Shown: positions 43,538 through 46,862, counted from the stretch's first letter. The stretch is DNA of 64,000 bases from Streptomyces sp. JHA26 (GCF_002005565.1 NZ_BDJC01000013.1:1-64000), one strand, 5' to 3'. The notes: generated by a model not told the origin, from the sequence alone. Made by a program: numbers and translations.

Positions 43538-43814
43538 CGGCCGGGCGGGCGGGGCCGGGTCGGACCGGCTCGCCGGCCGGTTGGCGGACCGGCCACGCCC
43601 CGTCGACGACGGCCGCGGCGGCGCCCTTGCGGCGCAGGAAGCTCTGGAAGTCGGCCGCCCACTCGGCGTACCACTCGATCTGGCGGTGGTGCGGCTCCAC
43701 CGGTCCGAGGGCGGCGACCTCGGGGTGGCGGCCGGCTGTCGCGAAGGCCGGCCGGGCCGCGGCGAGGGCGTCGGCCGAGGCGTCGTGGGTGGCGTCGAGC
43801 GGGACGCCGTTCAA
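43538..43814 (-). pseudogene. C-terminal remnant of a DnaQ-like 3'-5' exonuclease
   Basis: A frame reading GVPLDATHDASADALAAARPAF ... HRQIEWYAEWAADFQSFLRRKGAAAAVVDGAWPVRQPA matches the last third of Streptomyces DEDDh exonucleases, including the ExoIII HxxxxxD pair (HDASADA). An in-frame TAG lies two codons before its first residue, where foreign sequence starts. The matching N-terminal part is found 2.7 kb away at 46470-46862 on the same strand. The frame stays open past 43538, antisense to the phosphotransferase gene, so the original stop is unclear. Confidence 0.7.
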
Positions 43815-44247
43815 GTACTACGAGAGCTCACGGCGCACCGGCCCTGGGCGGCAGGCGTCCGTCCGTGACAACCGTGCGGTGGAGAAGGCCGCCAAGCGTG
43901 GAAACGCCAGGTTTCTCTCTGTGCCTCGGTATACAGCCTTCCGCGACGTCGGATTGCGCGGCTTGTCTCCCGACGGGACCGCGGATGTGTCCTTCCGGGG
44001 CCGTAATACCGAGCGGAATCCCGTCATGGCGGAAACCAGCGGCTCTCCCAGGCAGCCAACCGAAACGATCGCGTCACTCGCATCGATCGCCGCTGATCGA
44101 TGCGGCCTGATGCAGCACGGTATCCCGCTTGCAGAAGGTGATCGCGATGGCCATCCTCAAAGGCGGCGATGCGCCGGCCCTCGCCCTACGCTCCCGATCA
44201 CGAGATCGACTGCTGAGCGAGCATCGTCAACAATTACGGGGAGCAAC
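43815..44247 (+). promoter_or_regulatory. Upstream region of the S1-domain gene, no gene recognised
   Basis: A 433-bp stretch of relatively A+T-rich DNA within the cassette. Short frames occur but none has a ribosome site with a recognisable product. It must contain the promoter for the S1-domain gene and the left junction of the insertion; no clear -35/-10 pair, palindrome or operator was picked out. Confidence 0.4.
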
Positions 44248-45747
44248 GTGCCGCCTTTCGTCTACCGGATCGCCAAGTACGACCCTGCCGACCGCAACGA
44301 GCACGGCAGCTACGTCGGCGCTGAGGACACGACCGACGACCACGGACCGGTCGAGACTGCATATCTGCAAGCGGTTGCCGCCTTCGCCGAGGACACCGGC
44401 GTCAACCACCTGGCCATTCGTGAGCCGGGGATCTCCGGCCTTGCCCACTTCGGTCTGGAGCCGGCGGTCGACGGTCACGGCCTTGCCGAGCTCTTCCCAC
44501 CCGACCTCAGCGGGTTCCACGACGGTGCGGAGGTGCCCCTCTCCGTCGGTCTGGAGCTGGTCCGTGTCATGCTCCGCGAAAACGGTGCCTGGTGCCGTCT
44601 GGCGGTGGAGGACACGTTCGACGTGCAGGTCGGCTGGGACCAGTACCTCTACGTCAGCAGCGACAAGCCCTGCGAGCGCGCCGTTGCCCACACCCGGGCG
44701 CTCGGTCTCTTCCCGGAGCGGCTGGAGGCCTCACCCTACGACGCGGACTTCGACGAGCCCGGCGTGCAGCGGCCCGCCGACGAGGACTTCTGGGCCCTTC
44801 TGCGCTGGTCCATCGTCATGCGGCACGCAGCGATACTGGAGGAGGGGTACATCCACAATGCCTCCCGCTGGCACCGCCTCACCGAAGACACACTCGATGC
44901 GGTACGCGCCCGACTCACCCCGCGTGCTCAGTTGACCGTCTGGCCCGACCTGTCCACCGATGTCGACGCGGTCCTCGCCTCGCTTCCCGAGGAAGGTCCG
45001 GTGGAGTTCGTGTGGGAGGACGAGAACGGGGCTCTCTCCAGCACGACGGCCGACGAGTCCGACTACAAGGAGCTGGCCGCCCGCGTGGCAGGCGCCCGTG
45101 CCGCCATGGCCCTGTCTTTGACCCTCGACGAACGCCACCCGCTGTTCACAGCCGTCCTGCCCGACAGCGACGGCGTCCTGCGCGCGCGGTGGCGGACCGA
45201 GCCGACGCCGAGTGACCGGAACTGGGCCTTTCTGAAGAGTCTCCGCCGTGGACAGACCCTCACCGGCACAGTCACAGAAATCGCCAGCTTCGGTGTGACC
45301 TTTGTGGACATCGGCGGCTTCACCGCGATGATCAACATTCCCGAGCTGTCCTGGCGCCGTTTCGATCACCCCTCCGACGTCGTCAGTGTCGGCCAGGAGA
45401 TCTCGGCCGAGATCCTCGACGTCGACCTCGTGAGGGAGCGCGTGTCGCTTTCCCTGAAGGCATTGCAAGAGGACCCGATGCCGCAGTTCATTCAGCAGGT
45501 CGGCCAGATCACGAACGGCATCGTCACCAAACTCGTCCCGTTCGGAGCCTTCGTCCGTATCGAAAACGGGGAGGACGGCCTCGAAGGCCTGGTGCACCTT
45601 TCCGAGCTGGCGGAAGGACGCGTGAACCGGCCCGAGGACGTGGTACAGGTAGGAGACACCCTCACCGTGAAGATTGTGGACGTCGACCTTCCACGGCGTC
45701 GGATCACCCTCTCCCACCTCCAGGCTCTCGCACCCGGAGAGGGCTGA
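44248..45747 (+). CDS. Protein with two C-terminal S1 RNA-binding domains
   Basis: A 499-residue protein starting at GTG 44248 with GGGGAG 5 bp upstream. The N-terminal ~330 residues have no domain I recognise (VYRIAKYDPADRNEHGSYVGAED ... FLKSL), are acidic and rich in Trp/Tyr, and probably globular. Two S1 domains follow: about 332-405 (GQTLTGTVTEIASFGVTFVDIGG ... ERVSLSLKAL) and 417-492 (GQITNGIVTKLVPFGAFVRIENG ... RRITLSHLQAL), like those of ribosomal protein S1. The protein should bind RNA or act on ribosomes. It is in the inserted cassette, convergent with the exonuclease gene and 9 bp from it. Confidence 0.82.
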   Translation: MPPFVYRIAKYDPADRNEHGSYVGAEDTTDDHGPVETAYLQAVAAFAEDTGVNHLAIREPGISGLAHFGLEPAVDGHGLAELFPPDLSGFHDGAEVPLSVGLELVRVMLRENGAWCRLAVEDTFDVQVGWDQYLYVSSDKPCERAVAHTRALGLFPERLEASPYDADFDEPGVQRPADEDFWALLRWSIVMRHAAILEEGYIHNASRWHRLTEDTLDAVRARLTPRAQLTVWPDLSTDVDAVLASLPEEGPVEFVWEDENGALSSTTADESDYKELAARVAGARAAMALSLTLDERHPLFTAVLPDSDGVLRARWRTEPTPSDRNWAFLKSLRRGQTLTGTVTEIASFGVTFVDIGGFTAMINIPELSWRRFDHPSDVVSVGQEISAEILDVDLVRERVSLSLKALQEDPMPQFIQQVGQITNGIVTKLVPFGAFVRIENGEDGLEGLVHLSELAEGRVNRPEDVVQVGDTLTVKIVDVDLPRRRITLSHLQALAPGEG

Positions 45748-45756
45748 CCCGCGCGG

Positions 45757-46470
45757 TCATCGCCTCCGGGGTATGAGTGGCCAGGCCGGCTCGACGACTG
45801 CCTTCGGATCCGCAGTCCGCCGCAGATAGGCCTGCAAAGAGAGCGACTGTTCAGCCGCCGCGCGCACCTGGAGGTCATGCAGATCCGTCAATGGCATCAG
45901 GCCGACGGGCTGGTGCTTCTCCCCCATGCGTCGTACCACCCGAGCAGCGGCCACGGCATCGGCCCTCGCGTTGTGCGCGTCATCGAGCGACACGCCGTAG
46001 TGAGCGCACAACGCGTGGAGGGCCCGCTTGCCCTTCCGGTACTTGTCGACATGCTTGTCGATCACCAGCGGATCGATGACGGGCGCAGGCACACTGCCCA
46101 GCCGCTCGCTGACCGACTCGACCTCGTAGCGCCGACACTCGCGGTCCAGCAGTGACAGGTCGTAGCGTGCGTTCATCACCACCAGCGGCGTCCCAAGACG
46201 CAGCCCCTCGGCGACGGTCTGCGCGATCTCCTCGATGGCGGAGGCAGCAGGTGCCCCGTGCTCGCGAGCGTGGGCCGTCGAGATGCCGTGGATCGCCGAC
46301 GCCTGTTCCGGTATCGCCACTCCTGGATCGAGCAGCCAGGTCCGTTCCTCTACGACGGCTCCGTCCGGATCCAGCTGCACGACCGCCGCCGTCACAATGC
46401 GGTCGGTCTCGACGTCGGTGCCCGTGGTCTCCAGGTCGAAGGCCATCAACGGCCCACTGATCCAGCTCAT
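45757..46470 (-). CDS. 3'-5' exonuclease, DnaQ-like DEDDh family (intact, inside the inserted cassette)
   Basis: A 237-residue exonuclease of the DNA polymerase III epsilon/oligoribonuclease superfamily. All catalytic residues are present: Asp12 and Glu14 (FDLETTG), Asp104 (NARYDL), His166 and Asp171 (HNARAD). It removes nucleotides from the 3' ends of DNA or RNA; the substrate is not known. It is homologous to the split native gene at 43538 and 46470, which has the same length and layout. Its ATG overlaps the truncated native gene's TGA (TGATG), so it may be expressed from the native promoter. GAGGG lies 5-6 bp upstream of the ATG. Confidence 0.88.
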   Translation of the reverse strand: MSWISGPLMAFDLETTGTDVETDRIVTAAVVQLDPDGAVVEERTWLLDPGVAIPEQASAIHGISTAHAREHGAPAASAIEEIAQTVAEGLRLGTPLVVMNARYDLSLLDRECRRYEVESVSERLGSVPAPVIDPLVIDKHVDKYRKGKRALHALCAHYGVSLDDAHNARADAVAAARVVRRMGEKHQPVGLMPLTDLHDLQVRAAAEQSLSLQAYLRRTADPKAVVEPAWPLIPRRR

Positions 46471-46862
46471 CAGGCGGCCCTCGTTCCAGCATGGGCTGCC
46501 GGCCGGTGTCGCGCCTCGCCATGAGACGCCCGAGACGTGCCTGGCGTGCGGGGACAAAAGGCCCCGTCGTAGGCGACGACCGGAACGCCCGCCTTCCAGT
46601 GGCCGGTGAGGACGTCGGCGACGGCGTCGGCGACCTGGTCGGCGGGGCGGCCCTCGGTGGCCGCGCGCTCGTTGCTGATGCCGTGCACCGCGACCGCGTC
46701 CGCCGGGATCTCCACGCCGGGATCGGCCGGCCATTCACGGCGGCCGAGCGGCGTCCCGCCCCTGACCTCGATCACGGCGCCGGTGACGATGCGCGCCTCG
46801 CGCGGATCGGTGCCCGTCGTCTCCAGGTCGAAGCCGATCAGCAGCTCCCGGTGCCAGCCCAT
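46470..46862 (-). pseudogene. N-terminal remnant of the native DnaQ-like exonuclease
   Basis: A 130-codon frame from ATG 46862 with a strong GAGGAGGGG site. The first ~98 residues are a normal exonuclease start, with Asp12 and Glu14 in FDLETTGTD, VHGISNERA and the strand VPVVAYDGAF; the following ~32 residues (CPRTPGTSRASHGEARHRP ...) come from inserted DNA and end at TGA 46470. The ExoII and ExoIII aspartates and the histidine are lost, so the product is inactive. Its promoter and start are intact, so it is probably still transcribed and may drive the inserted exonuclease. Confidence 0.75.

Follow-up and report, generated by a model that had tools for sequence, protein, structure and literature searches.

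In Streptomyces sp. JHA26, a native gene for a PRK07942-type exonuclease is split by DNA that is very probably the remnant of a multi-recombinase (GInt/Tn554-like) transposon, one that carried an intact replacement of the gene it targeted and later decayed while this replacement—here called exo2—was kept. The locus lies within a 64,000-nt stretch of the genome (the window; coordinates are counted from its first base), which we compared with related loci in other genomes.

Results

How is the native gene split? It stands between a HEPN-domain gene on one side and a phosphotransferase gene on the other, and both of its parts are on the minus strand. The 5' part (46558..46862) comprises codons 1–101 plus two bases and retains motif I, with motifs II and III severed; the 3' part (~43564..43810), codons 159–240, is a dead fragment. 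A first-pass annotation had placed a split gene with foreign, lower-G+C DNA inside it at 43538–46862, and both statements are borne out: G+C is 66.6% over 43811–46557; the two native fragments have 75.1% and 79.4%, and the window as a whole has 73.1%. The annotation had also weighed whether the split arrangement might be ancestral in Streptomyces; intact native alleles, 238–245 aa long, are present in 20 of the closest relatives that we checked. Chance or an assembly artefact was rejected as the cause, since the same junction recurs in nine genomes and complete forms of the insert in four. As judged from sequence, the split marks where a site-specific tyrosine-recombinase transposon, since decayed, entered the exonuclease gene.

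What does the insert contain? On the minus strand, the 6-bp core of the target site on the left side, GGCCTT (46558..46563), is followed by the left terminal repeat TTGTCCCCGCAC (46546..46557), which has diverged from TTATCCACGCAC. From the junction, the native frame reads 28 codons into the element (46470..46557) and ends in a TGA whose A is also the A of the exo2 ATG (TGATG). exo2 itself (45757..46470, minus strand) encodes an intact, 237-aa DEDDh exonuclease of the PRK07942 type with NARYD as motif II; it scores 310 bits against the PRK07942 profile (NF005927; curated cut-off 186), and the truncated native fragment scores 126 bits. On the plus strand lie a 499-aa cargo gene (44248..45747), the last ~20 codons of the recombinase operon's 135-aa gene (44034..44093, from alignment to L098 10607–10666), and ~80 codons (approximately residues 136–216) of the tyrosine recombinase gene tnpA (43795..44033). 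The first-pass annotation had seen no integrase or terminal repeat, had inferred an unknown mode of integration, and had described a two-gene cassette. The tnpA remnant and the left repeat correct the first of these points, and the second gives way to the remnant of a transposon that is complete in four other Streptomyces. As to the third, one of the two genes is homologous to the gene that was interrupted and is a constant part of the element, and the other is variable cargo.

The cargo protein joins an N-terminal part, which matched no known family, to two S1 domains that resemble the ones in ribosomal protein S1 (58% identity). A scan of viral contigs for this S1 protein gave no match, and its AlphaFold model, with a mean pLDDT of 35, is too low in confidence to interpret. 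The family (window 44248–45747 and L038–L066) is patchy, occurring in ~60 of 296 Streptomyces genomes; because many members stop at about residue 318, without S1 domains, the N-terminal part may represent a separate family.

Complete elements were found at the exonuclease locus of four Streptomyces: G235 (8641 bp), G150 (8638 bp), G108 (8228 bp), and Streptomyces sp. APSN-46.1 (8244 bp). Within motif II, NAAFD, the insertion point follows the F codon and precedes that of the catalytic D, and no target codon is lost. The element ends are TTATCCACGCAC and its reverse complement—12-bp terminal inverted repeats, identical throughout except for a single base in the left repeat of APSN-46.1—extended by imperfect similarity. 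A 6-bp core, identical on both sides of each element, varies between hosts (CGCCTT in G235, GGCGTT in G150, and GGCCTT in both G108 and APSN-46.1); it was equal on both sides in all seven complete elements read. The plan is a four-gene recombinase operon at one end, exo2 at the other, and variable cargo between them. In G108, the order is native codons 1–102, exo2, the S1 gene, the 135-aa, 727-aa, and 604-aa genes, tnpA, and native codons 99–240. The APSN-46.1 element (L161) is likewise of the S1 form, whereas in G235 and G150, otherwise laid out in the same way, an MFS transporter and a regulator take the place of the S1 gene. Because the elements of G235 and G150 share 98.0% identity over 8636 bp, against ~75% for their flanks and 73.9% for the native 5' parts, we take the element to be mobile.

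Set against the G108 form, the window has lost ~5.0 kb, from inside tnpA to the 135-aa gene, and in a second deletion ~0.65 kb comprising the tnpA start, the right end, and native codons up to 158. The tnpA and 135-aa-gene remnants abut in the window, as expected if it arose from the G108 form by deletion. When the two native parts are joined and compared with the intact allele L008, 167 bp (~56 codons) are absent; the earlier estimate that ~55 codons had been replaced was thus right about the loss but not about its origin, since complete elements remove none and the codons went later. Taken by itself, the window, which has neither a right terminal repeat nor an intact recombinase gene, would also fit homologous or illegitimate recombination that brought in exo2 and the S1 gene, with no transposon involved. 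The left terminal repeat, the tnpA remnant, and the complete elements that four genomes carry at the same base leave that account with almost no probability, and we keep to a decayed transposon.

How widespread is the split? The junction pattern occurred in 6 of 393 Streptomyces genomes (a reversed control pattern had 0 matches), and all six places are split exonuclease genes; G221, with a one-letter variant, is the seventh. Together with L145 (S. cinerochromogenes) and L161 (APSN-46.1), these seven, which were read to the base, bring to nine the Streptomyces that share the junction after native NAAF|D. L146 (S. populi A249) was not added, as its exo2 is identical to that of G221 and the two are probably the same genome.

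Several further observations concern the decayed forms. Inside the decayed element of G221 (L068 8010–10048) sits an IS607-type insertion with serine-recombinase-like and TnpB-like proteins, as judged from translation. The cargo beside exo2 in G190 (L071 5532–6701) and G124 (L070 6820–8001) is a serine hydrolase like AmpH/class C beta-lactamases. G240 has a further decayed element of the S1 type (L073), consisting of native codons 1–79, exo2, S1, and native codons 185–240, and contig C85 of G237 holds a remnant (L141) with tnpA (86%) and broken exonuclease pieces, apart from the contig with that genome's main native exonuclease match.

The operon genes overlap, in the order tnpA (484 aa), 604 aa, ~700 aa, and 135 aa, and conservation of the four-gene block extends to other actinobacteria and to plasmids of alphaproteobacteria. 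TnpA belongs to the Phage_integrase family (PF00589 match). In the 604- and ~700-aa proteins, motifs read by eye include conserved Arg/Lys/His/Tyr positions, and one relative of the ~700-aa protein carries the name integrase in its record. Neither protein gave a convincing match to tyrosine recombinases by Pfam (also on alignments), PDB profiles, or profile–profile comparison with TnpA, and the AlphaFold model of the ~700-aa protein (mean pLDDT 32) is too low in confidence to interpret; their role is therefore judged from position, conservation, and the eye-read motifs. The 135-aa protein is weakly DUF6262-like, below the cut-off.

Does exo2 stand in for the gene that the element cuts? It is intact in 7/7 splits, and its dN/dS of 0.10–0.26 indicates purifying selection, which is also seen in G000, G221, G124, and G190, whose recombinases are lost or wrecked. 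The native 5' frame is open in 7/7 and somewhat relaxed (dN/dS 0.17–0.34, vs. 0.15 among intact genes), while decayed elements retain the native 3' part in eroded form or not at all. Junction-to-ATG distances for exo2 are 87, 87, 84, 120, 120, 63, and 63 bp—all multiples of 3—and the stop of the truncated native ORF overlaps the exo2 start in every split (TGATG in six, ATGA in one). Because the truncated ORF stops on the exo2 start codon, the native promoter and start would serve exo2; we infer a translational hand-over from the truncated ORF to exo2, as well as rescue of exonuclease function by the latter. exo2 has NARYD as its motif II in each of the seven splits, as do 42/42 Streptomyces genes from a scan of named genomes; exo2 therefore has no NAAF target and may be immune to reinsertion.

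Could exo2 instead be ordinary cargo, gained by chance and helpful to the element's own life (e.g., in repair after excision), with its end position an accident? Cargo does vary between elements, and the function of exo2 is a prediction. However, exo2 is the constant gene of all splits and is kept when the recombinases are lost, its start is held on the native stop across four linker lengths, and unrelated targets have matching copies of their own (see below). We consider a chance acquisition improbable and favor a carried replacement of the target gene.

Where else does exo2 occur? The 42 Streptomyces genes from the named-genome scan all lie beside the HEPN or the phosphotransferase gene, mostly beside both, and most of them stand alone at the locus. 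The entire native 5' part is retained in L145, L146, and L161; it is diverged in L167 and shortened in L147, L166, and L155. Four genes (L150, L152, L172, and L174) are chimeric: their first 11 codons are 91–94% identical to the native type and 64–73% to element exo2, and codons 34–101 are 77–80% identical to exo2 and 32–35% to the native type. By eye, a native-type leader lies upstream of all four. A crossover in the shared FDLETTGTD segment would account for these 5' ends. In the exo2 tree, element-borne and resident copies are interleaved, and in some species the native allele has apparently been replaced by exo2.

Some resident exo2 genes may be ancestral rather than element-derived (e.g., those of the rimosus/noursei and griseus groups). 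A broader version of this idea would make exo2 the ancestral gene of the Streptomyces locus and the NAAF type a newcomer; the old type would have returned on the element, residents would be mostly vertical, and replacement would be rare. It draws on the rimosus/noursei group and SPB074, in which basal type-2 genes occupy this locus, and it is partly compatible with our main reading. A purely vertical history is opposed by the chimeric 5' ends, by the shrinking native 5' remnants, and by the exo2 of S. californicus, silvae, and mutomycini, which group with element copies and not with the griseus group. We regard exo2 ancestry at the locus as conceivable but doubtful, and prefer repeated replacement by way of the element.

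Is the exonuclease gene the only target? Relatives of tnpA are present in 96 of 389 Streptomyces genomes (E 1e-20), and related elements with other targets occur in Actinomycetota and Alphaproteobacteria. In three Streptomyces (G273, G267, and G198), an HNH nuclease gene is cut at LAND|xLNL with cores ACGACA, ACGACC, and ACGACC, respectively, on both sides. A complete copy of the nuclease gene begins 17 bp past the junction, and the native frame ends directly before its ATG (TAGATG) in 3/3. Compared with the G273 copy, the copies show 84–88% identity and the native 5' parts of G267 and G198 only 44–49%. On a Bosea plasmid, ArdC is cut at EELVA beside TTATCC; the element there contains a second, complete ArdC together with mercury-resistance genes, and the 3' part of the native gene lies past it. 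The 5' half of this arrangement recurs on an IMG/VR contig. In G615, an element in the opposite orientation interrupts a metallopeptidase gene at SLVDH|(ELGH) and has a complete copy of it. A search for the native 3' part in G615 did not find it, and the metallopeptidase is probably a further target with a carried copy. From the sequences and general knowledge of the enzyme families, we take the cut points in the HNH, ArdC, and metallopeptidase genes to be catalytic or metal-binding motifs.

A carried target copy is the property of a subset of tnpA-related elements, since other tnpA relatives show none: no copy was seen at L138, L139, and L142–L144, a search of the flanks of L226–L228 found none, and L231 is located between genes. 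Separately, the tnpA relative in L144 (G092) abuts, at the tnpA end, a sequence resembling a ComM/Mg-chelatase-type ATPase (FPARFLMVL), a possible further target, and mercury-resistance genes adjoin the four-gene operon on conjugative alphaproteobacterial plasmids (L226, pSinA; L230, Bosea AS-1 plasmid).

Discussion

How does the element compare with known systems? In the portion of the original report available to us, GInt genomic islands are described as carrying ginABCD, three integrase-type proteins and a small fourth, with variable cargo and high site specificity (Bardaji 2017, PMC5385486). A 6-nt staggered exchange is proposed there, and the islands lie at gene ends or between genes and are thought not to fully inactivate the target. 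Both systems have four overlapping recombination genes in ginABCD order at one end. Here the element interrupts the catalytic motif of a gene and brings a replacement, whereas the available text describes no target copy for GInts. The first three GInt products are by criterion tyrosine recombinases (GinC without the first Arg); among the products here, TnpA matches PF00589. We describe the exonuclease-target element as GInt-like, short of assigning it to the GInts, because two of the operon proteins are candidate tyrosine recombinases and the comparison is one of architecture.

Tn554 and an actinobacterial class related to it have several tyrosine-recombinase genes in a row and a strict target, with relatives in Streptomyces, Rhodococcus, and Mycobacterium; Tn554 itself has one long and one normal-size recombinase plus TnpC (Van Houdt 2012, PMC3414803, available in part). 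Our element differs from the TnpA, TnpB, TnpC set by an additional conserved long gene and by its carried copy, no target copy being described for the class in the text available. SE elements carry intA, tfp, intB, and srap at one end, with imperfect terminal inverted repeats of 13–19 bp and a 6-bp spacer; they are reported only from Gammaproteobacteria, and their circularization is strand-biased, the donor site tending to supply the spacer of one side (PMC10214605). The four-gene set at one end, the inverted repeats (12 bp plus the imperfect extension), and the 6-bp core are similar here; the same 6 bp stand on both sides in 7/7 complete elements read.

A carried target-gene homologue is already known from one precedent, tgl of Tn552-II, the only other element carrying a copy of its own target that we found in the openly accessible literature. 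According to the available part of that report, Tn552-II (tnpABC) inserts in a staphylococcal yolD-like gene at a 7-bp att, a copy of which tgl retains, and the authors suggest that tgl may rescue target function (Wan 2025, PMC12486829). The elements described here differ in their 6-bp core, fourth operon gene, altered target motif in the copy, and several targets, and in start-codon coupling, which the available text does not report for Tn552-II. What is new is the range of targets, the cuts in catalytic-motif codons, the start-codon coupling in two target classes, and the evidence of allele replacement.

How might such an element work? The operon recombinases would insert a circular form by 6-bp staggered strand exchange, and insertion at NAAF|D would kill the native exonuclease. 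The native promoter and start would then drive exo2, translation being able to pass over at the shared stop/start, so that the host would retain an exonuclease and the element would be tolerated. Later the element would decay, as in the window, while exo2 stays; elsewhere, recombination between the near-identical FDLETTGTD segments would delete the native 5' part and leave exo2 as the resident gene. Related elements with HNH nuclease, ArdC, and probably metallopeptidase targets would follow the same plan.

On balance, we lean toward viewing these elements as a group in their own right, multi-recombinase transposons of Actinomycetota and Alphaproteobacteria that target catalytic-motif codons, bring a built-in replacement with its start tied to the truncated stop, and cause repeated allele swaps—that is, as natural gene-replacement machines. 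By bringing a spare gene, a transposon could land in active-site codons without obvious harm to its host, and the carried spare would account for both strict site choice and wide host range. It would also offer a route for the wholesale replacement of host alleles. Other split genes that adjoin a homologue are predicted to be scars of such elements, and target-gene rescue, so far suggested for one staphylococcal element, becomes testable on several independent targets.
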